NCBI RefSeq assembly: GCF_900198195.1
Contig: NZ_LT899436.1
Location: 3,315,001 to 3,379,000, forward strand
Length of the DNA stretch: 64,000 bases
Reading direction: 5' to 3'
Source of the DNA: Tenacibaculum jejuense
GTDB lineage: Bacteria; Bacteroidota; Bacteroidia; Flavobacteriales; Flavobacteriaceae
The translations under genes and the position numbers were made by a program. The notes under the pieces were generated by a model. The model was not told the origin of the DNA. It saw only the letters and a program-made list of their open reading frames with translations, and made no database searches. Below, piece after piece: positions 11,378 to 58,323 of this stretch (the first letter of the stretch is position 1; every line of letters begins with the position of its first letter).

Positions 11378-11383
11378 AATACA

Positions 11384-37504: not shown

Positions 37505-39136
37505 ATGGATAACTTAACTCTTTTCAAACAATTCGCTCCCAAAGCTCCCAAAAAATTTCAAGAAGGTAATAATGCTGTTATTTATACTCGGGTTTCCTCC
37601 AGCGATCAAGAGGATAATACCAGTTTAGCTTCTCAAAAAAAGCATTGTGATTTATATGCACAAAGACGAAACCTAAATGTTGTTGGATATTTTGGCGGTA
37701 CATACGAATCTGCAAAAACAGATGACAGAAAAGAGTTTAATCAATTATTAAAGTTTGTAAAACGCTCTAAAAACATCAACTATATTATTGTGTATTCTTA
37801 CGAACGATTTTCACGTTCGGGGATTAATGGAGCATCAATTGCGGAAGAACTACTTAAAAAGTATGGTGTTATTACATTAGCAATTACACAAGAACTTGAC
37901 CCAACTACTCCGTCTGGTTCTTTTCAGCAAAAAATATTTTTCCTCTTCGGACAAATGGATAATGAATTAAGAAGAGATAAAACCGTTACAGGAATGAAAG
38001 AACTACTCTTAAAAGGATATTGGGTTTGGGCTGTTCCTAGAGGGTATGAGGACTTAAATAAAGGAAAAGCTACAGAACGTAAATTAGTGGTTAATGAAGA
38101 AGGAAAACTGCTAAAAAAGGCTTTTGAATGGAAAGCTTACAGCCAATTACCAAACGTAGAAATTGTAAGACGTTTAAAAAAGATGGGAATTAACCTATCA
38201 GAGAAACGTTTAAACGATTTATTTTCAAATCCTTTCTATTGTGGGTTAATCACAAGTAAAATGATTCCAGACCAAGTAATTCAAGGAAATCATGAAGCTA
38301 TGATTTCTAAAGAACTTTTTTTAAAAGTTCATAATATTAGAAAAGAAAAACGCATACACGGATTTGTACATAATAAAGACAACGATAACCTACCCTTAAA
38401 AATTTTTACAAAATGTGAAAAATGTGGAAAAGGAATGACGGGTTATTTAGTGAAAAATAAAAATCTATATTACTACAAGTGTCGCACAAAAGGATGTAAA
38501 GTAAATCGTAGTGCCAAAGCAATGCACGAATTGTTTAATAAAGCACTTGCTTCTTTTAAGATTGAAAAAGAAGAACTAGAAATTATCAAGGTTCAACTAG
38601 AAGAACAAATGGGTGTGTTTTTTAAGTCAAAAACAGAGAATGAAAAGATTTTAAAAACCAACCTAAATACACTTAAAAAGAAATTAGAGAATATCGAAGA
38701 ACGATTTGTTATTGGCGAAATAGATAGACAGCTTTATGATAAATACAGTTCTAAATACAAAAAAGAATATTTTGAAATTGAACAAGAAGTTGAAAAAACA
38801 AGTGGATACAGTTCGAACCTCAAAAAAGTAATCAATTTTGTTACCAAAACATCTACCAATGTCTTACCGTTATGGGAATCTTCTACTTTGGAGAATAAAA
38901 AAGTTTTTCAGCAAATGCTATTTCCTGACGGAATCTTCTATAATCACGAATTAGACCAAGTTCGAACCACTAGAGTAAATTCATTTTTCTCGCTAATCCC
39001 AGAAATGACGAGTAATATAGGGAATAAAAAAAGCGGAAATTTTATCCAGTTTGATAAAAAATCCGCTTTAGTGATCGCGACAGGATTCGAACCTGTGACC
39101 GTCTGCTTAGAAGGCAGAAATTTTGACCACACATAA
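37505..39136 (+). CDS. Large serine recombinase with tRNA-derived C-terminal tail
   Basis: This site-specific recombinase of the resolvase/invertase superfamily has its catalytic domain at about 22-165: Ser-31 in YTRVSSSDQ and Arg residues in YERFSRSG. A recombinase domain follows, with a zinc ribbon (Cys-304, 307, 326, 331) and a coiled coil (about 355-435). From about residue 508 the frame runs through a minus-strand terminator hairpin. From residue 523 it runs through 48 bp identical to the 3' part of tRNA-Arg, giving ATGFEPVTVCLEGR. The tail is therefore host-derived read-through, and the native C-terminus probably ends near residue 505. It presumably mobilises the element to its left; that element's other end was not found. 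Confidence 0.85.
   Translation: MDNLTLFKQFAPKAPKKFQEGNNAVIYTRVSSSDQEDNTSLASQKKHCDLYAQRRNLNVVGYFGGTYESAKTDDRKEFNQLLKFVKRSKNINYIIVYSYERFSRSGINGASIAEELLKKYGVITLAITQELDPTTPSGSFQQKIFFLFGQMDNELRRDKTVTGMKELLLKGYWVWAVPRGYEDLNKGKATERKLVVNEEGKLLKKAFEWKAYSQLPNVEIVRRLKKMGINLSEKRLNDLFSNPFYCGLITSKMIPDQVIQGNHEAMISKELFLKVHNIRKEKRIHGFVHNKDNDNLPLKIFTKCEKCGKGMTGYLVKNKNLYYYKCRTKGCKVNRSAKAMHELFNKALASFKIEKEELEIIKVQLEEQMGVFFKSKTENEKILKTNLNTLKKKLENIEERFVIGEIDRQLYDKYSSKYKKEYFEIEQEVEKTSGYSSNLKKVINFVTKTSTNVLPLWESSTLENKKVFQQMLFPDGIFYNHELDQVRTTRVNSFFSLIPEMTSNIGNKKSGNFIQFDKKSALVIATGFEPVTVCLEGRNFDHT
39024..39069 (-). terminator. Displaced native terminator of tRNA-Arg
   Basis: On the minus strand AAAGCGGA pairs with TCCGCTTT, with an inner TTATC/GATAA pairing and a 6-nt loop, followed by TTTTT. 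It immediately follows the left tRNA-Arg fragment, where the tRNA's own terminator would sit if the 19-kb island were removed. Confidence 0.7.
39071..39118 (-). repeat. attL: 48-bp duplicate of the tRNA-Arg 3' end
   Basis: These 48 bp are identical to 58276-58323, which covers the 3' half of tRNA-Arg from the anticodon stem to the discriminator base. Identity stops at both sides. It is the left boundary of the integrated island, 156 bp before the integrase gene. Confidence 0.92.
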
Positions 39137-39176: not shown

Positions 39177-39217
39177 ACGAAATATTAAATTTTATAAAAT
39201 CAGATAAAAATAAAAAA

Positions 39218-39238
39218 ATCGGGGAGTTTTCGGGGAGT
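39218..39238 (+). promoter_or_regulatory. Tandem CGGGGAGT repeat near attL (possible integrase arm sites)
   Basis: CGGGGAGT occurs twice, 11 bp apart, separated by TTT. The whole 21-bp block, including the leading AT, is repeated identically and in the same orientation at 58208-58228 near attR. The integrase has an N-terminal arm-binding-type domain, so arm-site function is plausible. Confidence 0.6.
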
Positions 39239-39274: not shown

Positions 39275-40579
39275 ATGGCTAGTGTAACAATTGTTCTAGA
39301 CAAAAGAAAAAGTGGACAAAAAAAAGATGGATCTTTTCCTATCAAGTTAAAAATTGAACATGATAATAAACACCTAACAATTCATTTAAGTAAGCATGCT
39401 AAAATTGAACAATGGGACAGGGATAAATATAATCGTAAATACCCTAATTCTAAAAGAGCTAATAATGAACTGAATAAAAAGCTTGTTATTGCAGAAGATA
39501 TTTTAGATGATTATGAAAATGAAATTAAAACTTGGAACTGTAAACAACTTAGAGATTTTATTGCTTTACAGATCTTAGATGAAAAGTCCGAAAAACGAGA
39601 TAAAAAAATCAAAGAAAAAGGCGGTACACTTTTAATGACTCCTAAAGGTATTAAAACCATTAAGCTTTTTGAATACGGTAATCATTTAGTTAGCCATTAC
39701 GAAAACTTAAAACTTTATGGTAGAGCTAAATCCTACAAACAAGCTTTAAGTGCATTTAAGAAATACACTAACTGTAAAGAAGATATCACTTTTGCGGAAA
39801 TTACTGGAAAAGTCCTAGAGCAATGGAAAGTAAACATGATGAATAAACCTATGAAAGACACTTCGTACAATGCTTATTTAAGAGGCTTACGTGCAGTAAT
39901 CAATCATGGCATTAAAGATCATAAACTTCCAAAAGATGGAAATTATGGATTTCAGTATTTTACAGTGGGTACACCCCAACCAACACAAAAAAGAGCTATT
40001 CATTTAGAACAAATCAAAGCTTTATTTGAATATCCGTTAGAAAGAGAAACTTCCTTATGGCATTCTCAACAACAAGCTATTTTTATGTTTAATACTAATG
40101 GAATTAACTTTCGAGATTTAGCTTATTTAAGAATGAATCAAATTATTGGCGATTTTAACCGTATAAAATATACAAGAGCAAAAACCCATAAAGATTTTGA
40201 TATTGTCATCGCAGGTAAATCAAAGGAAATATTACAATATTACTCACAAAGAAAAAAACTAAATTCTAATGAATTAGTCTTCCCTATTCTGCCACAACAA
40301 ATTTTAGGACTAGGAAAAAAAGAGGTTACTCTTTATGAAAGTCGCCGTGATGTGTTTAATAACAACCTAAAGAAAATTGCCTCATTAGCTGAAATTGACA
40401 CCAATTTAACTTCTTATGTTTTAAGACATTCTTTCGCTACTGCTTTAAAGCACTCAGGAACAAATATTTCATATATTTCCGAAGCTTTGGGACATGACTC
40501 TTCTAAAACTACTCAAGTGTATTTAGACAGCTTTGAAACTGAGGACAATGATAATATCACTAAGTCTGTGGCTTTTTAG
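39275..40579 (+). CDS. int: Tyrosine-type site-specific integrase of the island
   Basis: This 434-aa phage-type integrase catalyses insertion and excision at tRNA-Arg. The N-terminal ~100 residues form an arm-DNA-binding-like domain (VTIVLDKRKSGQKKDGSFP). A core-binding SAM-like domain covers about 125-235. The catalytic domain has NGINFRDLAYLRM, a Lys in RAKTHKDF, SYVLRHSFATAL (R384; the usual first His of HxxR is Tyr-381, as in many Bacteroidota integrases), GHDSSKTT (H407) and the nucleophile Tyr-416 in QVYLDSF. It lies just inside attL. A TATCTTTA box at 39246-39253 may be its promoter. Confidence 0.93.
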   Translation: MASVTIVLDKRKSGQKKDGSFPIKLKIEHDNKHLTIHLSKHAKIEQWDRDKYNRKYPNSKRANNELNKKLVIAEDILDDYENEIKTWNCKQLRDFIALQILDEKSEKRDKKIKEKGGTLLMTPKGIKTIKLFEYGNHLVSHYENLKLYGRAKSYKQALSAFKKYTNCKEDITFAEITGKVLEQWKVNMMNKPMKDTSYNAYLRGLRAVINHGIKDHKLPKDGNYGFQYFTVGTPQPTQKRAIHLEQIKALFEYPLERETSLWHSQQQAIFMFNTNGINFRDLAYLRMNQIIGDFNRIKYTRAKTHKDFDIVIAGKSKEILQYYSQRKKLNSNELVFPILPQQILGLGKKEVTLYESRRDVFNNNLKKIASLAEIDTNLTSYVLRHSFATALKHSGTNISYISEALGHDSSKTTQVYLDSFETEDNDNITKSVAF

Positions 40580-40603: not shown

Positions 40604-40627
40604 TAAATACCTAGTACTAGGTATTTA
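40604..40627. terminator. 24-bp perfect palindrome after the integrase
   Basis: TAAATACCTAGT is followed directly by its exact reverse complement. The RNA form is a 10-bp stem with a GTAC loop and a T-rich stretch 5 bp later, so it may terminate the integrase transcript. As DNA it could be an operator for the four-gene set that starts at 40674. Confidence 0.6.
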
Positions 40628-40673: not shown

Positions 40674-43274
40674 ATGAGTAAAGAACTATTTAAAAGCATT
40701 GTTGAAAACGGCAACAGTGTTCCTTCGAGTTTAAACAAAATATTTTTCTCTGAATTTAATAAAAGTAATGGAAATGAGCTTTCCGATTTTATTGATGAAA
40801 ATTTCCCCATTACAATTGACAATCAAAGTGCAAGTATTTTTAGTGATCTACAACAAAAATACACTCAACACCAAAAACATGCTTACATAAATCGACAGAT
40901 ATTAGAAGCCAATTCTGAATTAATAAAGTATGTTGTAGGTACAGCTTCTGTGCCTGCTGCCGCAACTGGCGTTGGCGCTATTGTTGTTGGGGGAGTTAAC
41001 CTTTTCATGGACAAGCTACTTGATCATGCTTTAGATGAGTTCGACCAATCAGTTAAAAACTCTTCTGCTAAAATAGTAGGAGTACATTTAAGAGAGGTTA
41101 GAAATAAAACTGGCAAATCTTTAGAAGAAATATCTGGAATGGATACTAAAGCTGCTCATAAACTCCTATTTGAATCTAATATAGGGATAATGGACAATTC
41201 AATTGAGTTTTTAACTCCAGAAGATCGTACCAAGGCTTTACATGAAATGACGAAAATTCTTGAAGACAAATTAGTTCATGCTACTGCCCTAAATAAGCTT
41301 GTAAATGAAACTCAAGATATAGAAATAGCAAATATAAAAGATGAAATTGATTTCATCTCTAAAGTTCAAAACAACCATCAAGAATGCATCGAGAACATCA
41401 CTGAAAATATAGAGACCATACAACAAAATTTCATTAATTTAAGTGAATCCGTAAAAGTTCTACATTCAGAAGTAAGCAACAATTCTGAGAATATAGACAT
41501 TCTTAAAAACCATGTTTTTTCAAATGCTAATGTTGATCAAAAAATCAAATTACTCGATAGCGGTTTGTTAGATCAAAATTTAACTAGTGAAAAGAAGGAT
41601 CAGTTAGAAAAACAATTAAAAGCCTTAAAAGCAAAGCAAGATTTACAAAGCAGTATCCATAAGCATATTAATAAAGCTCGACACATCACTACCATTTTAA
41701 GCAATGTTGGCTTTGATTCTAAGACAGTCCAAAAAGCTAATGAACTAATTAATATAGGAACTACTGCTATGAATGCATTTACTGCATATAGTTCTGGCAA
41801 CGTTCTTGCTTCTGCAGCTATTGTCTCTGGACTTTTTGGAGGAAAAGGAAAATCCGATCCTGCTGCCCAAAGACATAAGCAAATAATGGACAAATTAAAT
41901 GTTCTAGATAATAAACTAACCGAAGTCTTAAATAATCAAATTACTATTATGAAAAATCAACAATTCATAATAGATACGCTTGGAAAAATTTCAAAGCAGA
42001 TAGATGAATTACATGCTATTGAAATGGAGAAATTAGAAGAAATTAAAACTGAGACCCTTTATAACAGGCTTTCAAACCTAGAACTTCAAACTAGAGATTT
42101 AAATGTTTTAGAAACTTTTAGTAAACCTTTTAAGAAATTTAGAGCAATAAAGAATCGCTCATACAATGATATACAACAGTTCTTTTTTGATTATGGAGAT
42201 CGCTTTGAAAAACATAATGATATCTTCAAACCTCTTTTAAATATATATAGCCATTCATTAGATCGATTTTTACAATTAAAGGAATATGAATATTTAGGTA
42301 TTAAAGATGATAATTCAATTAATGAAATATCCATAATTACTAAAGGGTTTGACAGAATCATTAACTATATCGAAAACTTCACAAGCATTAAAAATCAAAT
42401 TAATCTTTTTGGAAAAATAACTATTAATAATGTTTATCACTTAGATTCTAAGTTCGAAACTATTTCAAAAATAGAATATTATGATGATGAGGAACTTCCT
42501 TGGGGTTTAACCAAGTCTTCCTTAATTTTCACGAAACAACTAGAACGAATTTTTGAAATTTTAAATGAGGTTCACATATTCTACTTACTTCAAAAAACTG
42601 ACACTAGCGAATCAGAACTTCTTTCTACTGAAGATTTTTTCGCTAAAAGATTTCACAAACGTAAAGGCTACCAACATTTTCAGCATTTACTTATTTTAGT
42701 TAACATTGCTATTACTCAACAAAATTTACTTTCTGGAGACAAACTATTAGAAGTATTCTATCAAAGATTGTTTATTGATAAAATCGACCAAGAAACCCCT
42801 GAACACAAGCAAATTATAACAGTATTAAACAGTAATGGTTTATTTAAATCAAATTTCGCTAAATATTTTATAAAAAAACAATTGGAAAAAGAACGAAAAG
42901 TTACCATTAATGGGGATGAATTAAATGTTAAATTTGATTTCTTCGAATATAATTTATACTTGGCTAATACTTCATCATATGCTCAAGATATAAGAAATAA
43001 AACTAATTTAAGGATGTGTTTTGATGATAATTTACAATCACAAATCATATATCATAAAGGTCAATGGAAATTAGACTTACACAGAGATGATAGAGAAGCT
43101 TATTTAGAATTACCTAAAACTACCGATTTTAAACAAGGCGCAATACGTTTTCGAAGAGAAATGTATGCCCTACTAGAATTAAAATCAAAAATTTTAGATA
43201 AAATTTCCGAGTATGAATTAAAAGATTTTATCAATCCTAATGAAAATATTTACCAACATTTAAAATTTAATTAA
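40674..43274 (+). CDS. 866-aa coiled-coil protein with two hydrophobic segments, unknown function
   Basis: I do not recognise the family. The protein has no signal peptide. A Gly/Ala/Val-rich hydrophobic segment (about 86-111, SVPAAATGVGAIVVGGVNLF) could insert into a membrane. A long coiled coil (about 215-330) follows. A second small-residue-rich segment (about 361-393) ends in SGLFGGKGKSDPAAQ, and a second coiled coil covers about 401-465. The C-terminal ~400 residues are mixed alpha/beta with many aromatics and no catalytic motif I can name. The layout recalls helical pore-forming or membrane-active proteins, but that is an inference. One base separates it from the first of three small related genes; the four form a plus-strand operon directly behind the integrase. 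Confidence 0.75.
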   Translation: MSKELFKSIVENGNSVPSSLNKIFFSEFNKSNGNELSDFIDENFPITIDNQSASIFSDLQQKYTQHQKHAYINRQILEANSELIKYVVGTASVPAAATGVGAIVVGGVNLFMDKLLDHALDEFDQSVKNSSAKIVGVHLREVRNKTGKSLEEISGMDTKAAHKLLFESNIGIMDNSIEFLTPEDRTKALHEMTKILEDKLVHATALNKLVNETQDIEIANIKDEIDFISKVQNNHQECIENITENIETIQQNFINLSESVKVLHSEVSNNSENIDILKNHVFSNANVDQKIKLLDSGLLDQNLTSEKKDQLEKQLKALKAKQDLQSSIHKHINKARHITTILSNVGFDSKTVQKANELINIGTTAMNAFTAYSSGNVLASAAIVSGLFGGKGKSDPAAQRHKQIMDKLNVLDNKLTEVLNNQITIMKNQQFIIDTLGKISKQIDELHAIEMEKLEEIKTETLYNRLSNLELQTRDLNVLETFSKPFKKFRAIKNRSYNDIQQFFFDYGDRFEKHNDIFKPLLNIYSHSLDRFLQLKEYEYLGIKDDNSINEISIITKGFDRIINYIENFTSIKNQINLFGKITINNVYHLDSKFETISKIEYYDDEELPWGLTKSSLIFTKQLERIFEILNEVHIFYLLQKTDTSESELLSTEDFFAKRFHKRKGYQHFQHLLILVNIAITQQNLLSGDKLLEVFYQRLFIDKIDQETPEHKQIITVLNSNGLFKSNFAKYFIKKQLEKERKVTINGDELNVKFDFFEYNLYLANTSSYAQDIRNKTNLRMCFDDNLQSQIIYHKGQWKLDLHRDDREAYLELPKTTDFKQGAIRFRREMYALLELKSKILDKISEYELKDFINPNENIYQHLKFN

Positions 43275-43275
43275 A

Positions 43276-43620
43276 ATGCCTGTAAAAATTATAAAGCTAA
43301 AAGCCGACAGCTTCACTTATGCTGGGACAACAACTAAAATTACTACTGCAAAAAATGTAATTGGTGGAGGTGATTTATTTGTAATAAATAAAAGAGGAGA
43401 TTACAAGGACATCATAGAAGAAGTATATTCTAAGGATGAGATTGACAACATAAAGAAAAAAGTTACATCTGATTTAATTAAAAAAATAGAAAATATAATT
43501 CAGGATCACTTTCTTTCCTTAAAAGAAAATATTATCAATGACCCTAAACTTTCTAAAAAAGTTGCTGAACATATATTAAATGACAATACATTTCTAGAAA
43601 AATTAAAAAACAACTCTTAA
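43276..43620 (+). CDS. Small coiled-coil protein, paralogue 1 of 3
   Basis: This 114-aa protein of no known family begins MPVKIIKL, like its two downstream neighbours. It has a short beta-like head (about 1-50, with NVIGGGDLFVINKRGDY), then EVYSKDEIDNIKKKV. A helical C-terminal half contains LSLKENI and ends TFLEKLKNN. The VYxxxEID...K block starting a coiled coil resembles the stalk start of some phage fibre proteins. It starts 1 bp after the 866-aa gene. Function unknown; an adaptor or assembly partner of the large protein is a guess from the operon. Confidence 0.75.
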   Translation: MPVKIIKLKADSFTYAGTTTKITTAKNVIGGGDLFVINKRGDYKDIIEEVYSKDEIDNIKKKVTSDLIKKIENIIQDHFLSLKENIINDPKLSKKVAEHILNDNTFLEKLKNNS

Positions 43621-43632
43621 ATCTAAAATTAT

Positions 43633-44025
43633 ATGCCAATCAACGTAGTAAAAGTCACAAAAACAGGGCAACAACAAGTAACTTTTGAGCCTTGGTATAG
43701 TAATCGCCTCATTAGTCGTTCTAATGTCAATAAATTTGAAACAAGATTTACTAAAAACTGTATTAACCCAATTCACCTTCCTCCTAACTCAGTTTACCTA
43801 GTCTCGGAAGTTAATAATAAAATAAACGAAGTAAAAAACGCAATAGACCAATCGGAAGAGGAATTTAAATCTGAACTTTCTAAAAGTTTAGAGGATATTC
43901 AAAAACAAATAATCAGTCTAAAAAAACAAATAATAAAGGATCAAGCCTTCATAGAAAATATTACGGACTCATTAACTAACAATGAAACCTTCCTTGATAA
44001 AATAAAAGAAAAACTACAATCTTAA
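43633..44025 (+). CDS. Small coiled-coil protein, paralogue 2 of 3
   Basis: This 130-aa protein begins MPINVVKV. The head (about 10-53) differs strongly from its neighbours (QVTFEPWYSNRLISRSN). The block SVYLVSEVNNKINEV aligns with the VYxxxEID block of the others. The coiled coil has ELSKSLEDIQKQIISLKKQI, which matches paralogue 3 closely, and the end is ETFLDKIKEKL. It lies 12 bp after paralogue 1. Function unknown. Confidence 0.75.
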   Translation: MPINVVKVTKTGQQQVTFEPWYSNRLISRSNVNKFETRFTKNCINPIHLPPNSVYLVSEVNNKINEVKNAIDQSEEEFKSELSKSLEDIQKQIISLKKQIIKDQAFIENITDSLTNNETFLDKIKEKLQS

Positions 44026-44035
44026 AATTAACTAT

Positions 44036-44428
44036 ATGCCAATAAAAGTATTTTCATTAGAAAGAGGCTATAAAGGTAAAAATACCAAAATAGTACCAGC
44101 TTTAACTCCAATTCATTCAGGTAACCATGTCCATAAAGGAGATATTAGTGCACTTAATATAAATGACAATTACAAACAAGAATTTTTTGGTAAAGGTTAC
44201 AGGATAGCAAATTCAGTTTACACAACTAATGAAATAGACTCTTTAATCTCAAAAATCAATAACGAAACAGTTAATCTATTAAAAAATGAATTTAGTACTG
44301 AAATTGCTAAAAGTTTAAACCAAATTCAACAAGATCTAACTTCATTAAAACATGAAATTTTAGCTAGCAGAACTTTTAGAGAAGAGCTTAAAAATGAAAT
44401 TCTAGAAGAACTAAAAAGAGAACTTTAA
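44036..44428 (+). CDS. Small coiled-coil protein, paralogue 3 of 3
   Basis: This 130-aa protein begins MPIKVFSL. Its head (about 9-58) contains IHSGNHVHKGDISALN and is unlike the other two. SVYTTNEIDSLISKI leads into the coiled coil EIAKSLNQIQQDLTSLKHEI and an end rich in Glu/Lys. It is the last gene of the plus-strand set, 10 bp after paralogue 2. The conserved stalk with variable head across the three suggests parallel subunits with different binding targets; this is inference. Confidence 0.75.
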   Translation: MPIKVFSLERGYKGKNTKIVPALTPIHSGNHVHKGDISALNINDNYKQEFFGKGYRIANSVYTTNEIDSLISKINNETVNLLKNEFSTEIAKSLNQIQQDLTSLKHEILASRTFREELKNEILEELKREL

Positions 44429-44607: not shown

Positions 44608-45585
44608 TTATTCTTCTCGAATTAAATTAAGTTGCTTTGCTATATCCATTACAATTTTACTCATTGGTCTTTTATGGATATCTTTATCTTGTGTATAATT
44701 ACCTACTAATAACCTTTTAAATAGCTCAGGGTGCAAGGATAATTTGTTAAAATTTTCATTTAAACTTTTCAAGTAAGACTTATTATAAATTTGACTTTTA
44801 ATAATTAGTTCTTCTATCAAGTCTTTCTGAGTTTCATATATACTTTCTATATGAAAAACATCATTAAATTTCTTAGCTATAGGATCATTATACGTAGGTT
44901 CAGAAAAGGAAAAATTAATTTCTTGAGCATCTCTAGTAGTTAAATACTTAGATTTAGAATATGAACTCATTTTAAAATTATATTTAGATTTTGTTGTTTT
45001 CTTAGAATCCAGTGTATATAATTCAAATTCAATCTTATTGTTACTTTTTACTCTATTACAAGATGCACAAGCTGGGTATAAGTTAAACAGTGAAATACTT
45101 AGAAATGGATATTTATCTCTTGAATAATAATGGTCAACATCAAATTTAGCGGAATAAGTTCCGTTAGATTTGACAGCAGTTATTGATAACTGTGAGTTAC
45201 AATACACACATGACTTAATCCCTAACTCTTTAAAATATATTGGATAAAATGTTCCTCTTAAATATTTATAATTAAGAGCATCGAGTATAAATTTTTTAAG
45301 AGTTTTTTTAGGTTTTCCGTTTTTATAAAATCTAGAATTTGGAGGAATACTACCGATTGATACTATTAGGGTTTCTATAGTATTTGGGACACACTCTATA
45401 ATCTTTATTGAAGAGTTTTTTTCAAACAATCTTATTACTGATCTTAGATAATTCTTTTCAGCTGTATTAAATTGATTTTTATTAATCTTTTTTAATTTGG
45501 TTAGTGCTTTCTCTCTTTGATTTTCTATCTCTATTTTAAAAAGCGACTGAACGTATAACACTTTATTTTCATGAATCGCTATCAT
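44608..45585 (-). CDS. HNH endonuclease (PtuB-like)
   Basis: This 325-aa predicted nuclease has an HNH core: CVYCN (126-130), DVDH (149-152), Asn-168 and CASCN (173-177). The four cysteines form the structural zinc site and the DH pair the catalytic metal site. It overlaps the upstream AAA-ATPase gene by 17 bp. An ATPase followed by an HNH nuclease is the layout of the anti-phage system Septu (PtuA/PtuB) and of some retron effectors; no reverse transcriptase or retron RNA was seen here. The nuclease is probably held and released by the ATPase. It is the last gene of the eight-gene run. Confidence 0.85.
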   Translation of the reverse strand: MIAIHENKVLYVQSLFKIEIENQREKALTKLKKINKNQFNTAEKNYLRSVIRLFEKNSSIKIIECVPNTIETLIVSIGSIPPNSRFYKNGKPKKTLKKFILDALNYKYLRGTFYPIYFKELGIKSCVYCNSQLSITAVKSNGTYSAKFDVDHYYSRDKYPFLSISLFNLYPACASCNRVKSNNKIEFELYTLDSKKTTKSKYNFKMSSYSKSKYLTTRDAQEINFSFSEPTYNDPIAKKFNDVFHIESIYETQKDLIEELIIKSQIYNKSYLKSLNENFNKLSLHPELFKRLLVGNYTQDKDIHKRPMSKIVMDIAKQLNLIREE

Positions 45586-47776
45586 CTCTTAATTTTTCTA
45601 ATTTTTTTATTTGTTCATTTATAAATGTATTCTTTGAATTTTTAAATGTTTCAGTATACAAATCCATTAAACTCATATATAAAATAGGCTCACCTACAAT
45701 ATTTATAATTCCTTTACATTCTTTTTCTAACTCTTCTATATTTTTATTCTCTATTTCTTCTTTTTTCTGAATTTTTTTCATGATTTCTATAACATCATTT
45801 ATTCTGTTTTTTGCAAACTCACCCATAAAACCTTTTTTTAGAAAGAAATCATTGGCTAATAAATCATGAATATTTGCTCCAAAAGTCTGTTGTTGAATCG
45901 TTTTTACCTCACCATTCTCTAGTCTTAAAATATTTGATGATTCAATGTCTGATAAAATAAATGGAGAATGAGTTAAGTATATTAAATGAATAGAATCTAT
46001 TCCTTTTTGCCCTTTAATTTTTATATTCTCTAAGGCATCTAAAATACTACTTGTTAACTCTCTTTGCATGTCTGGATGATAATAGATTTCTACTTCGTCT
46101 AAAATGATTGCTATATTTTTATATGTAATTCGCGTAATATCAGAAACTTCTTCTGTAAAATGAACTGAATGTAAATTATATAAATGATACGTAATTGTAT
46201 TAATATTAAAGATTATCTGTTGCTCACCAGAACTTAGTTCACTTAATTGTATAGTTTTGTCTTTATCTACTGATATTTCAAAATCAATATTAAAAAAGCC
46301 AGGTAAAGCATAATCTATTAATAAAGAAGGTGTAAGTGTTTCTTCTTTCAGGCCACATTCCTTTACCCAAGACTTTAAATCTTCTGTTGTAAACTCTCTA
46401 TATGAGTAATGGCTATCTTTATTCCATATAGAATTTGGGTTATTGGTAAATTTAATAAAATTAATTGTTTGTCTTAATTTTCTAGTGATATGGCTTTTAT
46501 CATTCCTTAAAAAAGCCATAAACTTACTATTACTATAATTTTGGTTCTTATCTCTAAATAAATGCGAATAATTATCTCTTATTCTGTCTATTTTTTTCTC
46601 TAAATAACCTAAAGCATAATCTTGATAATTTGTATATCTTTTTAAGTAGTTTTGACCTATTTTTGAACGGACTAACTTCACAGATTTTAAATTATTAAAA
46701 TCATCGCTATCAAGATATCTAGTAAAAGGACGCTTTAAGTCGTTATTTTGATCTTCAAAATCTACTCTTTTGATTAAGTCAAAATCTTTTTTTGCGAAAA
46801 ACAAGAATTTTTTTAGCTCATATTTTTCAAGTAATAACGTTTTCTTGTTTAATACAACATCAAAAGACAGATTAGACATTATTCTTTCCCTTGACAAGTA
46901 TAATTCCTTATTAATATTGAAGTTACCCTCATTTCGCATTGGGTTTATAACTACAGGTGTGGTATAACCATCATTTTTATGAAACAAGCTGTTAATCCAA
47001 TTTCCCATAACTTTAGAGTTCAATGAGTGATGGGAATAGTTTAAGCAGATTGAATAGAAAAAAGGCTCAAAAAAGAAATTACTTTTCTTTACCGGTTTAC
47101 CATCAGAACTGTATTCATAAAATTCTAACTTACCCTTAGTAAATCTAACAGAATATAGACTTCCTGACTCTTGATAGATTAGGCAAGCTTTTAATTTGTC
47201 TTTAATTAAACGTTCTATTTTAAGGTCGTCTTGCTTTTGACCTAATAGGAACTTTAACTTTTTCTTGAATAAATTATTAAGAAGCGTTCGTCCATTTGTT
47301 ATACCTTGCAAATCCTTTTTATCTAACTCCAGATTATTATCATCAAGAAGTTTAAATAAATCTATAGATCTTGGGTTTTTATTTTTTAAACTTTCAAGTT
47401 TTCTAGCATCACTTTGAGCTTTAAGTATTTGAGAATTTAATACTTCAGAATATTCATCTAATAGTTTCTCTTTTTTATTATAGATGCTCATAGCATAAAC
47501 CAAGTAATATAAAAGCTCTATGAGAGCACTTTTACCAGAACCATTTAAGCCTACTACTGCTGAAACCTCAACATTAATACCATTTTTTAATTTATAGATA
47601 CCATTACTTTCATTCTTTTTAACTGTAGTGATTTTTTCAATTCTGCTATTATTCCTGTTCAGTTTAATAGAGTATTGATCAGTAAATTTATAGGGCTTAC
47701 CAATAATTAAATTTTTACTAAACTTTTCGTCACATCCTTCTAAAGGTATTATTGATATTAATTTAAAGTTTTTCAT
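45569..47776 (-). CDS. AAA/ABC-type ATPase paired with an HNH nuclease (PtuA-like)
   Basis: This 735-aa SMC/ABC-like ATPase has Walker A GLNGSGKS (76-83), an ABC signature SELSSGEQQ (512-520), Walker B IAIILDEVE (555-563) and the switch His in LTHSPF (about 602). A long helical insertion lies between the halves. A C-terminal tail of about 130 residues may contact the HNH partner. It is longer than the PtuA proteins I know, so a Septu variant or related system is possible. It lies 12 bp after jetD and overlaps the HNH gene by 17 bp. Confidence 0.85.
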   Translation of the reverse strand: MKNFKLISIIPLEGCDEKFSKNLIIGKPYKFTDQYSIKLNRNNSRIEKITTVKKNESNGIYKLKNGINVEVSAVVGLNGSGKSALIELLYYLVYAMSIYNKKEKLLDEYSEVLNSQILKAQSDARKLESLKNKNPRSIDLFKLLDDNNLELDKKDLQGITNGRTLLNNLFKKKLKFLLGQKQDDLKIERLIKDKLKACLIYQESGSLYSVRFTKGKLEFYEYSSDGKPVKKSNFFFEPFFYSICLNYSHHSLNSKVMGNWINSLFHKNDGYTTPVVINPMRNEGNFNINKELYLSRERIMSNLSFDVVLNKKTLLLEKYELKKFLFFAKKDFDLIKRVDFEDQNNDLKRPFTRYLDSDDFNNLKSVKLVRSKIGQNYLKRYTNYQDYALGYLEKKIDRIRDNYSHLFRDKNQNYSNSKFMAFLRNDKSHITRKLRQTINFIKFTNNPNSIWNKDSHYSYREFTTEDLKSWVKECGLKEETLTPSLLIDYALPGFFNIDFEISVDKDKTIQLSELSSGEQQIIFNINTITYHLYNLHSVHFTEEVSDITRITYKNIAIILDEVEIYYHPDMQRELTSSILDALENIKIKGQKGIDSIHLIYLTHSPFILSDIESSNILRLENGEVKTIQQQTFGANIHDLLANDFFLKKGFMGEFAKNRINDVIEIMKKIQKKEEIENKNIEELEKECKGIINIVGEPILYMSLMDLYTETFKNSKNTFINEQIKKLEKLRDDSDS

Positions 47777-47788
47777 TCTTTATATAAA

Positions 47789-48730
47789 TTAATTTAACAC
47801 CTCTTTTATCATTTGTATTAAGTTAAATGATTCCTCTTCAATCCATTCTTCACTTTTGATTAACTCGTTGATGAGAACCAACTCCTTTTTAGAAAAATCT
47901 TCAAGTTTTAAACCAGATAACGCCTTGGTTAAATCCCAATGACTGTAATGATACTTAATGTACGTGCTAATTCTTTTATGAGGTTCATTGGGGAATAAAA
48001 GTTGAATATCACTATTTCTATCTTTTAACTTTGTCTTTATTCTGGAATAAATCTGTAAACCAGCTAAATCCCAATCACAAGAATAATAAATTGATTTTGA
48101 GAGTTCCACTTCATCTATATCATCTAAAACTTTTATATTATTTCCTCCAACATACCACATTTTAACCTCTGTATTTCGAGCAATCCATGGTTGTTTTAAG
48201 AATGATTTATTTTCACATAATACGATAGCTTTCGGGTTTTTATGGTCTACTACTATCCTCCAATAATTCTCTTTTGTATCTAAAGGAAAATGAGTAATAC
48301 CTAAAATGGTAAATACAGCATCCCTAACACTTTTCTTCTCTTTTAAATATTTGGATATATCAAAAAACTCATTTGAAAAATCTTCTATATTAGTAGGATT
48401 GTTTCTTAACTCTTCTTTGTTTTCACTAATGAGCATTAATGTTTTGATATCTTCAAGAGTAAAACTCTTTTTTGCAGTTGGTTTAATTCCATTCTCAATA
48501 AGAAATAATTTTGCTTCATTATACGCTACCTTAAAATTCTTTTCATAAAACCCCTCAAACACATCAGTAGCTATTATAACTTTTATATTATCAGGCTTTA
48601 AATCAAGAACACCTTCATCGTCAATAAGATATTTTATGTAGGGATGCTCCTGAATATTAGCTCTAGTTTTTTTTAATCGGTAAATATCATCTAGTGCCTT
48701 TAATTCTTTCCAAGTAATGTTCTTATCCAT
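47789..48730 (-). CDS. jetD: Wadjet JetD-like TOPRIM nuclease subunit
   Basis: This 313-aa protein ends with a TOPRIM-type core: CENKSFL at 172-178 supplies the Glu and DWDLAG at 219-224 the DxD pair. That is the arrangement of the DUF2220/JetD subunit that cuts DNA in Wadjet systems. The N-terminal part is helical, as in other JetD proteins. It overlaps the JetC gene by 8 bp. In Wadjet the JetABC SMC complex extrudes small circular DNA and JetD cleaves it, which protects against plasmids. Confidence 0.82.
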   Translation of the reverse strand: MDKNITWKELKALDDIYRLKKTRANIQEHPYIKYLIDDEGVLDLKPDNIKVIIATDVFEGFYEKNFKVAYNEAKLFLIENGIKPTAKKSFTLEDIKTLMLISENKEELRNNPTNIEDFSNEFFDISKYLKEKKSVRDAVFTILGITHFPLDTKENYWRIVVDHKNPKAIVLCENKSFLKQPWIARNTEVKMWYVGGNNIKVLDDIDEVELSKSIYYSCDWDLAGLQIYSRIKTKLKDRNSDIQLLFPNEPHKRISTYIKYHYSHWDLTKALSGLKLEDFSKKELVLINELIKSEEWIEEESFNLIQMIKEVLN

Positions 48731-51700
48731 TTTTTGCTACTCTATTTATATACTCATTAATATCTTCAAAAACCTCATCTGAAAAAATACCAAGTGGTGG
48801 AACAAAGTTTTCCATATCAGCTAAATTATTTTCATTCATTATATAAATATACTGTCCATCATCAGTAATTTCACCAGCTGTTTCAATTGCCATCGTTACA
48901 ATCTGGTACTTCTCTTCTTCAGCTAATTCATGAAGCATATCATAATTACTACCTAACCCCTCAGCTTCATCTATGGGCATTATTTTAAGTCCAACATCCT
49001 TTTCTTCAATTAAGGATATTCTTGCTAAGCATAATAATGCATTGGCAGTATAAGTTTGTCCATTACTTCCAGAATTAATTTCATCATTATCAAGTTTTAA
49101 ATGAAAATCTAAATCAAAGTAAGACTTTGGATCCATAAGATCTTCTGGTTCTACTTTAGCACTACCACCAAGTTTTTGAAAAGCTTTAATCATCATTTTA
49201 TTGATATCTATTTCTTCTCGAAGGTCACTAAATAATCCTGTATAATTCATCTGATTATTTAATTGTTTTCTAAAACTCGAAAGCCAATTTTCAGGATAAT
49301 GAACAGATTTCTTATATGATAGTGAAGCTCTATTACCTCCTGTAATACCTTTGTTTTTCTTTTTAAGATAACTGTTTATTTCATTGATTTTAGTCAAATA
49401 TCCTGTATAAACTTTATACACTTGATTAAAAATATCGCCAAGAATTTCAACTTTTCTTGATCCTATTTCTTGAATATCTTTAGTTAACTTATTTAATCTA
49501 TCTGCAATATTATTATTGATTAAATCTTCATTCACTTTTGATGTTGGAAATACTGTTGGTAAAAGATAGTTTGCCAGTTGGCCTATTGATACAGAATCAT
49601 CATATGGTGAATCCTTTGTAATCAATCGTAAATATGCCTTGTAATCTGATTTTACACTATCGGCTTTATACTTTAAAGAATTATTACCTCCCTCATCTGG
49701 ATTAGTAAATTCTTCTGCTTCATTATTAAACTTTATAGTAGATTTGAACAAGTCAACATTCATTCGATTTGTTTCATCTAACTCTTCTTCAGATACACTT
49801 ATGTGGTCTTCTTTTTCCTTTTTAATTACTAGCAAATCTTTTCTTGATTCTAGAGTGTCATATCTTAACCCTATTAATTTAGATTTATCATTAATGTGTT
49901 TTGAATACTTTTTCTGAAAAACATCTATCTGTTTTTTTTCAAAGTTCTTCTCTTGTTCTAACAATTGTTCTTTGCTATCAACAATTCTACTTTCAATTAT
50001 TGAATCATCTACATTTGAATCTTCATCGAAAAAATCAGATTCTAATTGTTTAACTCTTTTAGTATAGTTATCTAGAGTATTTTTCTTGTTTAAATGCTTT
50101 TGGTATCTATCTTTTAATTCATCATATTTTTTTTCAATTTTCTTTTCTCTTTTGTAATCGTTTAGAAGATTGTTGAATGAATCTTCTGTTATGTCTTCTA
50201 GGTCGATATGAATTTTAAACTCACTAAGTTCATCTTTACGACCATAAAGTTTAACATGCTCTTTAAGGTTACTAAATTGAAATAAGGTTTCCTTAAGTTC
50301 TCGTTTAGTTTCTATTTGTGAATTAAGGTTTTGTAACTTGCTATTAACCTTATCTTTAAACTCTACTATTGAGTTAATTAATTCCTTTGGATTATCAATA
50401 TCCAAAACTCGATTTTTAGAACATTCAACAAATTCGTGTACGCCATCAAGATTAAGCCAAAAGCCTTTTTCGCTAATTTCCTTTATATTATCGTTTACTT
50501 TATTGAATAGCTCTTCTGGTTCAGGGATATATCTTTTAGAGTTTTCTTCTGAAGGTTTAACTCTACCGTATTTTTGGAAGTATATTAAAATGCTCTCAAT
50601 CTCATAAGATATTGGGAACTTTAAATTTTCAGTAGCCCATCTTAAGAGCGACTCAGGGTTGTTTATATCTGAAAATTTGGATAAAGCTTCTTGTTCGTTA
50701 ATTTCCTTTTCTAATTTGTCAATTTCTATAGAAAACTTCTCTTGAGCATTATCAAAATCTTTTAACCAATAAGAAGTTTCAAAATCCGTTACTATTTCTT
50801 CATTTGTTAGATAGTCATTAAACTCTTCTAATTTATTTTTAGCATTATTTTCTTTTTTTTGAGTAAAGAACCAATCTTTAACTTTCTCCAAATCTTCATC
50901 ATTAATCTTCAACCATTTTTTTACTTTTTCTACATTTAATTTAAATTGCTTTACCTCCAAAAATTTATTTTCTATATCATACTCAAGCTCGTTCTTTTCA
51001 TTAAATTCAATAATTCTTTCTTTAGTATCTAATAGTTCTTCAAGCTCTTTTATATCTAATTTAAGTATTAAGTTTTCTATAAACTGTAGTTCTAAATTAG
51101 TCTCATCAAGATTTTTAGTATTCTTTTCTTTTTCTGTTATTGCTTTTTTCTGAAGCGTATTCCAAAAATTGAACCTCTTATTGAGGTATTTTGTATAAAT
51201 AGTTTTGTAGTTATTACTTTTTGTAAGAGCATCTTCTAATAAATTCCACTTTTCGTTTATAAGATTTATTTCAGCTAAATATCTTTTATGTTCATGAAAA
51301 TCATTATTTATGTTATTTACCTCCTCTTTATATTTTTCTAATATTATGTTTTGTTCATCATCTCCAAAAAGGAACTTTTTTAAATTCTCCGATTCTATTT
51401 TAAAACCTTTACCTCTAGAAAATGACCTAAGTATACTAGCAAAAGTTTTTAAAGTCTCATTTTTTGTTAAATCCAATGAAAGTATATCATTGTTAAAAAG
51501 TATTTGATGATAACTTTTTCTCTTAAAAGACTTCATGTTTGCTATTTCAAACTTTTCACAAAGGTTTTTAAGTGTTTCAATTTTATTATTAATAATTAAA
51601 TCCTTGGCAAGGATCGGTGTAGTAAGATTTGTTAATTCTTCCCAATCATATCCATTTTGAATTATAAACATGTCTGCCATATTACTTGTACCTTCAATAT

Positions 51701-52010
51701 AGGCACCAATGCTTATGTACTGCTTTGGTTTAATTTCTATATTTAAAAATATATAGCCTCTGGAAGTTGAGTTCCCTTTAGTACCCAAAAGCATTCCTTT
51801 AACATCTCGCTTTTTATTTCCATCAGTTGCAGATTTAAACTCACTTGAACCAACAAGAATTAATTGTATCATATCTGCTATCATACTTTTTCCACTACCA
51901 CTTTCTCCACTGAAATCTGTTCTATAAGGGTGGAATAAATAATCCGCATTAAAATGTTGTTTAATACCTATCGTCGACAAGCTATATATACGAGGAAAAT
52001 TATTCAGCAT
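48723..52010 (-). CDS. jetC: Wadjet JetC-like SMC ATPase
   Basis: This 1095-aa SMC/MukB-like protein has Walker A GESGSGKS at 35-42. About 700 residues of coiled coil lie in two arms (about 235-480 and 560-770). The C-terminal head has NSGSNGQTYTANALLCLARI as the signature region and Walker B IMPIDEAEGLG at about 1010-1020. It is the motor of the Wadjet complex. It overlaps jetB by 11 bp and jetD by 8 bp. Gene order jetA-jetB-jetC-jetD is the standard Wadjet order. Confidence 0.88.
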   Translation of the reverse strand: MLNNFPRIYSLSTIGIKQHFNADYLFHPYRTDFSGESGSGKSMIADMIQLILVGSSEFKSATDGNKKRDVKGMLLGTKGNSTSRGYIFLNIEIKPKQYISIGAYIEGTSNMADMFIIQNGYDWEELTNLTTPILAKDLIINNKIETLKNLCEKFEIANMKSFKRKSYHQILFNNDILSLDLTKNETLKTFASILRSFSRGKGFKIESENLKKFLFGDDEQNIILEKYKEEVNNINNDFHEHKRYLAEINLINEKWNLLEDALTKSNNYKTIYTKYLNKRFNFWNTLQKKAITEKEKNTKNLDETNLELQFIENLILKLDIKELEELLDTKERIIEFNEKNELEYDIENKFLEVKQFKLNVEKVKKWLKINDEDLEKVKDWFFTQKKENNAKNKLEEFNDYLTNEEIVTDFETSYWLKDFDNAQEKFSIEIDKLEKEINEQEALSKFSDINNPESLLRWATENLKFPISYEIESILIYFQKYGRVKPSEENSKRYIPEPEELFNKVNDNIKEISEKGFWLNLDGVHEFVECSKNRVLDIDNPKELINSIVEFKDKVNSKLQNLNSQIETKRELKETLFQFSNLKEHVKLYGRKDELSEFKIHIDLEDITEDSFNNLLNDYKREKKIEKKYDELKDRYQKHLNKKNTLDNYTKRVKQLESDFFDEDSNVDDSIIESRIVDSKEQLLEQEKNFEKKQIDVFQKKYSKHINDKSKLIGLRYDTLESRKDLLVIKKEKEDHISVSEEELDETNRMNVDLFKSTIKFNNEAEEFTNPDEGGNNSLKYKADSVKSDYKAYLRLITKDSPYDDSVSIGQLANYLLPTVFPTSKVNEDLINNNIADRLNKLTKDIQEIGSRKVEILGDIFNQVYKVYTGYLTKINEINSYLKKKNKGITGGNRASLSYKKSVHYPENWLSSFRKQLNNQMNYTGLFSDLREEIDINKMMIKAFQKLGGSAKVEPEDLMDPKSYFDLDFHLKLDNDEINSGSNGQTYTANALLCLARISLIEEKDVGLKIMPIDEAEGLGSNYDMLHELAEEEKYQIVTMAIETAGEITDDGQYIYIMNENNLADMENFVPPLGIFSDEVFEDINEYINRVAKNG

Positions 52011-52680
52011 TTTTTATTTCTTTTATTAGGTCATCAATTGTTGCAATTTGTGGTTGATAAGCTACTCTCAATCTTTCAAAGGATGGCATAATCTTAAATT
52101 TATCTTTTTCATTTTCATCATCCCACACTAACCAACCTAACTCTCCAAACTTTAAGAATGATTTTCTAATTACATCTTCAAACTTTTCATCATTCATATC
52201 TGAACCTTTATCTGAAGAACTATCATTGATTAATTTTCTTAACGCATTTTTTTCCTCCTCATATTCTTCATAAAGCGTAGTTGAAAATTCAGAAATACTA
52301 TCAAGTTCAATATTCCCATCTAACTTGTACATTTTTAGAAATAACATCCCTATGATTATATACTCACTTTTTAAGTACTCTCTATTATCCGAAGGAACAT
52401 TACTTTTCCCATCTTCATTTAGTGCTAGGTAGTAGTATCGATTAAATTCACTACCTTCTTCTATCAGATTTAAATTGAATAAATCGCTATAGTAATTTTT
52501 TAAAGACTCAAAGTTTTCAGCCTCGTTTAGAAAGCGAAATAAATTTACATTTAAGGGATATTCCCTCTGTACGTGCACTCCACTTCTTAATACATAATCA
52601 AGTTTACCAAAGATGGAAGATGCTTTCTTTTCATAGAGAAAACTATACTTACCTATCTCTTTTGAATTTTCATTTGCCAT
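52000..52680 (-). CDS. jetB: Wadjet JetB-like (MukE/MksE-like) subunit
   Basis: This 226-aa acidic helical protein sits between the JetA-like and JetC-like genes, where the KITE/MukE-like subunit belongs. A winged-helix-like C-terminal half (GELGWLVWDDENEKDKFKI) fits that fold. Sequence signals alone are weak, and the assignment rests mostly on size and place. It overlaps jetA by 28 bp and jetC by 11 bp. Confidence 0.75.
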   Translation of the reverse strand: MANENSKEIGKYSFLYEKKASSIFGKLDYVLRSGVHVQREYPLNVNLFRFLNEAENFESLKNYYSDLFNLNLIEEGSEFNRYYYLALNEDGKSNVPSDNREYLKSEYIIIGMLFLKMYKLDGNIELDSISEFSTTLYEEYEEEKNALRKLINDSSSDKGSDMNDEKFEDVIRKSFLKFGELGWLVWDDENEKDKFKIMPSFERLRVAYQPQIATIDDLIKEIKNAE

Positions 52681-53972
52681 AACGATGTTTCTTTATGTGA
52701 TGAGCTAGTAAAAGCTTCTTTTTTTATTTCAATACTATACTTGTGTTTAAGTTTGGTACATCTTCTAATGATACTATGAGCAGTTTTAACTGCAATCCTA
52801 AGTTTATCTTTATCTAAAATTTTGAAAAATAATGGTGAAAAAACTAAGGTGCCTTTCTCTTCTAATTCTTGAAAAGCCATATTAGTCCAATATTTCACTC
52901 TTGCTTTCTCTTGCTTCCACTTTTTCGCTTTTTCTATTAATTTTTTTTGTTTTTCGATATCAACTTGTCTTTTTGTAACTTCTACAGGCATTTTAGGACT
53001 TATATCTCTAATTGAAAGTACATTTAATTTTAGATTATGCTCCGTAGATTTTATTTGTATTCCAGAGAGGTTATCTGGAAGATGAATTCTTTTAGTATTT
53101 CTATCTCTTTTTACAAAAGAGTTATTTAATAGGTAACCAATAAATTTATTTGTTTTTCTATCAAAGTCTTTTCTATTGAAATCATATATAAACTCTCTAA
53201 TTCGAGGCTTTATTTTTTCTATTCTCTTACTGATATGTTCTAATTGACTTCTAGAATTATCGTGAAAATCTTGAACTCTTTTAATATTTTCAATATGATC
53301 ATATCCGCTATCTTTTTCAAGAATACCAGTCATTAGTTCGTCAATATCATAAGAAATTTGAAAAGCATTTTTAATTTTTAATGCTTGTTCTTTAATTATC
53401 TCAAGACGAAACTCTATTTCTTTTAAAATATTGAGTATGTCTTTTTCTTGTGATTTAATATTAGACTGAAACTCTTGAACAGATTCATTAACTTGTTGAT
53501 CTAAAATTTCAATTTGTGAAATAAGCTCTGGCTTTCGTATCTCAAAATGATCCTCTATCCATTCATTAAATTTTTTTCGTTCTACAATATTTTCACTAAG
53601 ACTTTTATACAATTCATCAAAAAACCTTTTTATTTTGGCAGGGCTATATCGTTTAATTAATCGTTTTTCAATATTTTGACACCATTCAAAACCATATTTT
53701 TTAAATTTATATGTTCTTTTAGAGTTATTACGCCATAAAAATGTTTCTTGTAACCTAAGAACAATATTGTTGTTTCTGTGATTTTCTGTTCTTGGGCTTT
53801 CATTTCCTTGATCTTTAAAAACTTTCTTTATTATTGAGATAATATTTTGTTCTGTAAACTCTTTGTCCTTATACTTATCATAGAGGGATAAGAGGATTAA
53901 TCCATCATTTTTATTAGGAATTAATTTCTCATATTGAGTTTTTGCTTCTATGTAAAGATTAAAGCTATCCAT
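52653..53972 (-). CDS. jetA: Wadjet JetA-like (MukF/kleisin-like) subunit
   Basis: This 439-aa protein has an N-terminal winged-helix-like region (about 20-110), a long helical middle (about 140-270) and a C-terminal winged-helix-like end, as in MukF/MksF kleisins. It begins the jetABCD set, 8 bp after the helicase gene and overlapping jetB by 28 bp. No catalytic motif is expected. The subtype of Wadjet cannot be decided from sequence inspection. Confidence 0.78.
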   Translation of the reverse strand: MDSFNLYIEAKTQYEKLIPNKNDGLILLSLYDKYKDKEFTEQNIISIIKKVFKDQGNESPRTENHRNNNIVLRLQETFLWRNNSKRTYKFKKYGFEWCQNIEKRLIKRYSPAKIKRFFDELYKSLSENIVERKKFNEWIEDHFEIRKPELISQIEILDQQVNESVQEFQSNIKSQEKDILNILKEIEFRLEIIKEQALKIKNAFQISYDIDELMTGILEKDSGYDHIENIKRVQDFHDNSRSQLEHISKRIEKIKPRIREFIYDFNRKDFDRKTNKFIGYLLNNSFVKRDRNTKRIHLPDNLSGIQIKSTEHNLKLNVLSIRDISPKMPVEVTKRQVDIEKQKKLIEKAKKWKQEKARVKYWTNMAFQELEEKGTLVFSPLFFKILDKDKLRIAVKTAHSIIRRCTKLKHKYSIEIKKEAFTSSSHKETSLWQMKIQKR

Positions 53973-58053: not shown

Positions 58054-58207
58054 CGATAACCATAATTAATTATAGAGAGAATCATCTATATAAAGGAAGA
58101 ATTTGGCTATGAAACGGGGACTTCTTCAATTCTTTTTCTCTCACACTGCTAAAAATAGTAAAATTTATTTTTGAAAACTACGGTTTTCCATAAATAGACA
58201 GTCAAAA

Positions 58208-58228
58208 ATCGGGGAGTTTTCGGGGAGT
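58208..58228 (+). promoter_or_regulatory. Tandem CGGGGAGT repeat near attR
   Basis: This is an identical 21-bp partner of 39218-39238, 48 bp inside attR and in the same orientation. The other content of the 58054-58276 gap is a short hairpin (GAAAAC/GTTTTC at 58173-58188) and the terminator at 58240-58267. No clear promoter box for the defence operon was found here. Confidence 0.6.
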
Positions 58229-58275: not shown

Positions 58276-58323
58276 GTGATCGCGACAGGATTCGAACCTG
58301 TGACCGTCTGCTTAGAAGGCAGA
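58276..58323 (-). repeat. attR: 48-bp repeat within tRNA-Arg
   Basis: Identical to attL (39071-39118). It covers the tRNA from the anticodon stem to the 3' end and thus keeps the tRNA gene intact after integration. Confidence 0.92.

Follow-up and report, generated by a model that had tools for sequence, protein, structure and literature searches.

Binary and tripartite alpha pore-forming toxins such as YaxAB/XaxAB, AhlABC, SmhABC and MakABE are built from components that resemble one another and are similar in size. Phage short tail fibers and receptor-binding stalks combine a head with a coiled-coil stalk, and LmuB of the Lamassu defense system is an SMC-type protein. Variable recognition parts serve effectors in both the cytoplasm and the envelope in other conflict systems, such as those whose sensors are diversified by diversity-generating retroelements (DGRs; PMC10907252). 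Here we report a four-gene set in a 64,000-nucleotide stretch of the Tenacibaculum jejuense genome (contig NZ_LT899436.1, positions 3,315,001 to 3,379,000; hereafter the window), in which a gene for an 866-amino-acid (aa) protein is followed by genes for three small paralogs within a defense-rich integrative element. It is possible that this set is a two-part conflict module, an idea that we put forward tentatively and weigh below.

The window's set shares with the alpha pore formers several co-encoded helical proteins and hydrophobic stretches in long helices, but it pairs the large protein with stalked proteins of 114–130 aa, and no sequence or fold match was found. For the ClyA/XaxAB/Hbl fold, Foldseek returned nothing under E 0.001 (an XaxB row has E 2.2), the N-terminal half of the model being of low confidence. 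Like phage fibers, the small proteins have a head, a coiled-coil stalk and, at the junction, the sequence VYxxxE(I/V)(D/N), which we take to resemble fiber motifs. However, the matches are not significant, no phage genes were recognized nearby, and a related subunit in Changchengzhania lutea has a signal-peptide-like start. The first-pass annotation of the window, made from the sequence alone, had pointed to fiber trimerization starts; the resemblance is at most suggestive, with PDB profile rows for the small proteins at E 0.069 (a tail-tip fiber) and E 0.6 and a tail-fiber PHROG match in one of eight small proteins (E 0.0076), none of them significant. The likeness to the DGR-type systems would lie in variable recognition parts that serve effectors in both compartments. 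The difference is that above cut-off Pfam revealed neither such a sensor nor a STAND/MoxR-type ATPase domain in the four proteins, and no search was aimed at a diversity-generating reverse transcriptase.

Likeness to Lamassu consists of a single match of the window's large protein to one PADLOC LmuB model (E 2.3e-5, residues 20–379), and the protein differs from LmuB in having no Pfam ATPase domain. The first-pass annotation had named a match to a known defense family as one of the results that would speak against its reading; the LmuB match touches on this, but was discounted, and Lamassu membership rejected, because at E 1e-3 an LmuB model of any kind is matched by only 2 of 28 large-family members (27 distinct proteins and a piece from C. 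lutea) and none has a Pfam ATPase. At that threshold no SMC-type ATPase domain was found by Pfam in the 28 members (the best AAA row of the window's protein has E 0.78), and none of the three small proteins gave an LmuA effector row when rows with E up to 1 were admitted, a range in which the HMMER filters drop most rows above 0.1. A scan of the 28 large proteins against PADLOC-DB 2.0.0 at E 1e-3 gave LmuB models twice and PbeC once, in one member each, and the window's small proteins at E up to 1 gave two weak rows, both for one of the three (PbeC 0.0036, CARF6 0.034). These rows assign the components to no known system of PADLOC-DB 2.0.0.

Gene Set and Large-Protein Family

The four plus-strand genes are closely packed at positions 40674–44428, with gaps of 1, 12 and 10 bp (Table 1), as the first-pass annotation had described. 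All four are single-copy in the genome, a single contig of 4,614,879 bases in which the large protein gives one match and the small family three at E up to 10.

Searches with the large protein, in each of which about 8000 candidates sharing most words were scored, gave 13 matches with one sequence and 16 with a profile. Together they define at least 27 distinct proteins including the window's own, a lower bound because only these candidates were scored. Where source names are given, the relatives are called "hypothetical protein"; named hosts are Pedobacter nyackensis, a Flavobacterium, a Chryseobacterium and a Candidatus Peregrinibacteria record. The last of these, P0009, is a partial protein of the window's clade whose record is named for a lineage distant from Bacteroidota, and could reflect either transfer or misbinning. 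Several relatives lie on long contigs, among them P0034 of Pedobacter nyackensis (1.9 Mb), P0002 (627 kb), P0027 (578 kb) and P0013 (338 kb). At E 1e-3 neither Pfam nor PHROGs has a match for any of the 28 members, in agreement with the earlier view of the system as unrecognized. A profile alignment of the window's clade with the main exported clade (see below) extends over 708 columns at E 2.4e-40, and the two clades therefore constitute one family.

Two hydrophobic segments had been noted in the large protein. They correspond to the first two stretches in Table 1 (peak values 1.77 and 1.12), and the third (1.01) almost equals the second. Conservation is highest at residues 376–405 (0.74), comprising a hydrophobic stretch that ends in GLFGG and an RHKQIM block (motif GLFGG...AAQRHKQIM, residues 386–405); it is second highest at 676–690 (0.71) and lowest at 601–615 (0.36). 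The predicted model has a long helix at 397–491, a better predicted C-terminal part (approximately 470–850) and long helices of low confidence in the N-terminal half.

Structure-prediction and profile searches, which the first-pass annotation had proposed, gave no fold match for the large protein; the best structural row of all was a viral structural protein (E 0.0087). Against PDB sequences, the window's protein gave 0 rows at E 1. The exported profile gave 11 rows, the best being a Piezo channel over 49 positions at E 0.0061, which was judged to be chance. The four Pfam rows of the window's protein, of which His_Phos_2 (E 0.0034) is the strongest, fell under the curated cut-offs. Two NCBIfam families, seen in 2 and 1 of 13 exported members (E 0.0005 and 0.0029), were set aside.

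Export Signals and Conserved Cysteines

A signal-peptide-like start, judged by hydrophobicity and charge and not by a dedicated predictor, is found in 13 of the 22 full-length relatives of the window's protein (the partial P0009, P0029, P0033 and P0035 are left out of the full-length counts). This apparently exported majority was beyond the reach of the first-pass annotation. Eleven of the 13 (P0011, P0022–P0028, P0030, P0032 and P0034) form one clade; the others are P0031 and P0012, the latter with its signal after a long leader. Eight relatives have no such start. The remaining one, P0013, was left out of the export groups, its start being unclear because the 64%-identical relative P0031 starts further upstream. 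By the same measures the window's large protein has no such start, as had been noted from its sequence, and the C. lutea copy includes an N-terminal piece with one (by eye). Met-Pro starts are found in 7 of the 9 full-length unsignalled large proteins and in all 7 unsignalled small proteins.

At three alignment columns, 14 of 14 rows from the main exported clade share a cysteine. In the window's clade 0 of 10 rows have a cysteine at these columns, and one of the three is gapped there. P0012, P0013, P0031 and the piece from C. lutea keep two of the three cysteines. A tree of 24 rows places the nine unsignalled full-length proteins, including the window's, on one side of a branch with support 100/100; P0012, C. 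lutea (G125) and P0010 are long branches in this tree, and the join of G125 with the unsignalled clade is doubtful. The export signal and the cysteines changed once on this tree, and because it is unrooted the change can be read as loss or as gain of export.

Small Proteins

The three small proteins of the window are homologous (Smith–Waterman z 12.2, 10.1 and 11.0). For each of the three pairs 0 of 1000 shuffles reached the real score, also when residues were shuffled inside 10-residue windows, which bears out the first-pass description of paralogs with similar starts and stalks and differing heads. As described there, all three begin with MPV or MPI, and KSLxxIQxxxxSLK occurs in two of them. 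The VYxxxEIDxxxxKI block is present in the looser form given above, the stalk starts being VYSKDEIDN, VYLVSEVNN and VYTTNEIDS.

A small-family profile search recovered eight proteins: the three from the window, P0016 from C. lutea, which was part of the query, and the new P0018–P0021. In the two closest pairs the head diverges more than both flanks. Identity in P0020/P0021 is 95% over the first 20 residues, 45% over the rest of the head and 62% over the stalk, and the corresponding values in P0015/P0018 are 75%, 35% and 61%; the pattern is absent in P0018/P0020 (40/44/59%). At least two sorts of tail could be distinguished by eye, a longer one with (N/D)xTF(L/I) in P0014, P0017, P0019 and P0016 (DPTFI in P0016), and a shorter one ending like EELKNEI in P0015, P0018, P0020 and P0021. 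Heads seem to vary independently of tails, because P0014 and P0019 share the long tail and are 55% identical in the stalk, with the rest of the heads 18% identical.

The monomer model of small protein C has strands at 6–9 and 18–21 and helices within 64–129, with a predicted local distance difference test score (pLDDT) under 50 at residues 23–57. Small protein B gave rows in Pfam and NCBIfam (PEP-utilisers_N, Med9, TssO, FcmC and others) that were all below cut-off and fell mostly on the coiled coil.

Pairing of Large and Small Genes

In C. lutea (locus L005) the small gene P0016 lies 4 bp after the downstream piece of the large gene, with IetA and IetS directly downstream. P0016 encodes 187 aa with a signal-peptide-like start, a head, the sequence YSKEEIN and a helical tail. 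The large gene is split by an open reading frame (ORF) at 11025–12173 that by eye resembles an insertion sequence (IS) transposase, and this copy is probably inactive because of the interruption. Against the seven other small proteins P0016 has a mean Smith–Waterman score of 68.7, compared with means of at most 54.3 for 192 coiled-coil control segments, and 0–7 of 1000 shuffles per pair score as high against individual small proteins; by these scores P0016 looks like kin of the small proteins.

The large protein P0006 and the small protein P0020 are each listed on two contigs, the longest of 3365 bases, and are probably encoded on one contig. On a conjugative plasmid of Burkholderia ubonensis (L009), P0037 overlaps P0036 by 4 bp. 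P0036 is likely a distant family member, and the open frame that precedes its annotated start contains a signal-peptide-like stretch; P0037 (207 aa) has a signal-peptide-like start and a helix-like tail. Recurrence in other genomes, which the first-pass annotation had left to a search, is thus found in C. lutea, probably in the P0006/P0020 contig and possibly in the B. ubonensis plasmid. Four loci have readable neighbors, of which two hold a kin pair, one a pair whose small gene is a partner by position and shape, and one a partnerless relic.

Export signals agree between partners in the four linked cases, being absent from both proteins in the window and in P0006/P0020 and present in both in L005 and L009; the agreement was partly judged by eye, and two of the four cases are uncertain (P0006/P0020 in linkage, P0037 in kinship). 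This agreement suggests that the partners act in one compartment and perhaps touch. A setting among defense genes, judged by family scans, is repeated in two loci only, the window and L005. At L009 two neighbors were scanned, one of them with weak rows (PDC-S14 1.8e-5), and L008, the relic, was left out of the defense scan.

Integrative Element and Distribution

The gene set lies within a 19.2-kb element at tRNA-Arg (tct), bounded by 48-bp direct repeats (Table 1). An integrase before the set and three defense systems after it had been reported, and both statements hold with the qualification that PDC-M62 is a candidate family only and that the Wadjet-like operon has no recognized JetA. The unmatched gene in the JetA position possibly marks a diverged Wadjet variant.

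Table 1. Features of the integrative element in the T. jejuense window (positions 1 to 64,000).
Feature	Position	Strand	Remarks
Left 48-bp direct repeat	39071..39118	+	Copy of tRNA-Arg 3' end
Tyrosine integrase	39275..40579	+	Just inside left repeat; PF00589 6.3e-15, PF13102, PF17293
Perfect 22-bp palindrome	40605..40626	.	Upstream of four-gene operon; possible operator or hairpin
Large protein, 866 aa	40674..43274	+	Mostly helical; hydrophobic 87-105, 371-389, weaker third 669-687
Small protein A (P0017), 114 aa	43276..43620	+	MPV start, head, stalk VYSKDEID..., tail NDNTFLEKLK
Small protein B (P0014), 130 aa	43633..44025	+	MPI start, head, stalk VYLVSEVN..., tail NNETFLDKIK
Small protein C (P0015), 130 aa	44036..44428	+	MPI start, two-strand head, helices 64-110 and 112-129 (predicted)
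PDC-M62, two-gene candidate defense system	44608..47776	-	HNH protein and AAA ATPase, Septu-like; 1.6e-48, 1.4e-43
Wadjet-like operon	47789..53972	-	JetD-like 8.9e-6, JetC/MukB-like 2.9e-10, MukE-like 4.1e-7
Gene in JetA position of Wadjet-like operon	52653-53972	-	No Pfam or PADLOC match
Gabija	53981..58053	-	GajB 53981-56032 (6.3e-172), GajA 55981-58053 (7.9e-237)
Right 48-bp direct repeat	58276..58323	+	Inside tRNA-Arg (tct) 58276-58350, - strand

A 25-bp direct repeat inside both element ends (39214–39238 and 58204–58228) may represent arm-type integrase sites. A test of the palindrome as an operator used across the genome found no second exact copy of its 16-bp core, and three other places match that core with 2 mismatches. 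Just outside the element, a serine recombinase ORF (37505–39136) extends into the left 48-bp attachment (att) repeat. The tRNA-Arg copy thus encodes the C-terminal residues of the recombinase, a hint of either a hybrid end or a second element in tandem. In another species of the genus, the tRNA-Arg end has two partial copies (G1038:C1:4780608-4780659 and 4834334-4834387), which lie 27 and 80 kb away from the match with the intact site. This tRNA gene may be a recurrent integration spot.

Large-protein profiles found the family in 2 of 397, 2 of 395, 1 of 97, 2 of 395 and 1 of 329 genomes in overlapping samples, and only in the window's genome and C. lutea; within the genus the protein is rare (1 of 97 genomes). 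In a further sample, 5 of 295 genomes matched at E 1e-3, namely the window's genome and four at no more than 18.9 bits, which were counted as coiled-coil chance. The window-clade profile (A2) found nothing in the scan of genome contigs for context, and the main exported profile (A9) found one fragment. Scans of viral contigs with family queries found nothing. The window's large protein matched no plasmid or phage, P0012 and P0031 matched no plasmid, and the window's protein and P0028 matched none of 50,697 phage records. P0027 recovered the L009 plasmid, whose own two proteins recover that plasmid only. We found no description of the gene set in the open-licence papers surveyed, a selection that gives no proof of absence.

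Possible Functions

Our preferred, still tentative, reading is that the gene set is a two-part conflict module, probably anti-phage, carried as cargo of a defense element and consisting of a membrane-acting effector and oligomeric sensors or adaptors. The large protein, with GLFGG...RHKQIM as its core, would insert its hydrophobic stretches into the membrane, or press on it, once triggered. The small proteins would be oligomeric stalks, probably trimers, whose differing heads recognize a target, and the stalk and tail common to them would pass a signal to the large protein or recruit it. Both proteins would act in the cell envelope in exported relatives and in the cytoplasm in the window's clade. 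We infer membrane contact from the position of the hydrophobic stretches between long helices, a recognition role from constant ends and changing heads in the small proteins, and defense from the company of genes in two chromosomal loci; the cargo recognized in the element is of the defense type. An effector with recognition subunits in a defense element is a known arrangement, and here it would come from a family for which no relatives were found. The first-pass guess of target-specific sensors for a pore-forming effector is partly supported by an unrecognized gene set, a defense-rich element and a recurring pair, and its membrane and sensing parts stay at the level of these inferences.

Several observations weigh against the proposed module. 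Genes in a defense element need not be defensive. Neither Pfam nor the fold searches gave a family or fold match pointing to a pore former, and the large-protein model is weak (pLDDT 61, with residues 1–127 under 50). Kinship of the small partners is challenged by a profile of the seven unsignalled small proteins, which scores P0016 and P0037 not above the best shuffles. In addition, 22 of 1000 shuffles inside 10-residue windows score as high as P0016/P0017, and P0016 scores 66 with one of the 192 coiled-coil segments, more than three of its own seven scores. On the plasmid, the match of P0036 to the exported family is partial (hhalign probability 86%, E 5e-6, 245 columns; tblastn E 0.01), and P0037, unsupported as kin by comparison, shuffles and controls, is a partner by position and shape. 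In Flavobacterium sp. LC2016-13 (L008) the large gene consists of a fragment spread over two ORFs, and no small gene follows it.

The signals of 13 of 22 full-length relatives, with the conserved cysteines of the main exported clade, fit action outside the cytoplasm, as expected of a weapon against competing bacteria, in which small target-binding adaptors would aim a membrane-active toxin that is exported or, in the window's clade, otherwise released, and phage defense would play no part. The hydrophobic stretches in long helices recall the binary and tripartite alpha pore formers, in the literature covered likewise small operons. We regard such a weapon as fairly unlikely, since family scans of the neighbors recognized no immunity or release gene, the window's proteins have no signal peptide and the ClyA-type toxin fold is unmatched. 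With its apparent export, the two-gene set found on a conjugative plasmid (L009) and beside defense genes (L005) could instead form a barrier to incoming DNA by superinfection or entry exclusion, the stalk-and-head subunits binding tail tips or pili to block injection or conjugation without killing. This is quite unlikely in our estimate: the window's clade could hardly act outside because it has no export signal, and the plasmid partner P0037 is not established as kin.

Three of the four loci with readable neighbors are in or near mobile DNA (the integrase and att repeats here, the L009 plasmid, and L005 with IS- and intron-like ORFs around it by eye), which is consistent with a function outside conflict, in which the set would serve mobile elements in maintenance, in transfer or at the surface. 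Against this stand the position of the genes among cargo, an element in which no transfer gene was recognized and the rarity of the protein in the genus, and we consider such a function improbable. A phage-tail-like remnant, in which a tape-measure-like long protein and fiber-like small ones would serve in structure or delivery, would agree with structural rows to phage tape-measure and minor tail proteins, which are weak (E 0.17 or higher), with the better row to another viral structural protein and with the weak sequence rows to tail fibers. However, the element holds no recognized gene for a tube, sheath or baseplate, none of the 28 large proteins has a PHROG match at E 1e-3, the signal peptides of relatives are unfit for a tape measure, and two members are unmatched among the phage records; this origin is very improbable.

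A more specific form of the conflict module, which we consider unlikely, is an exported and so far unnoticed two-part surveillance machine in which interchangeable stalked heads aim a constant membrane-acting subunit. In one clade both parts would have lost the export signals and disulfide cysteines, moved to the cytoplasm, gained three heads and become a new type of anti-phage system inside the cell. The outside-to-inside direction of this move is assumed, because the tree is unrooted.

Whatever the function, the family is a clear target for further work, with at least 27 distinct large proteins and a small partner that recurs in some. If the conflict-module reading is true, the set would be a defense or competition module from a family without known relatives, in envelope and cytoplasmic forms, and would open the questions of how a conflict machine switches compartment and how small heads direct a constant effector to new targets. 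Should the dual-compartment form prove true, such a system would be categorically new.

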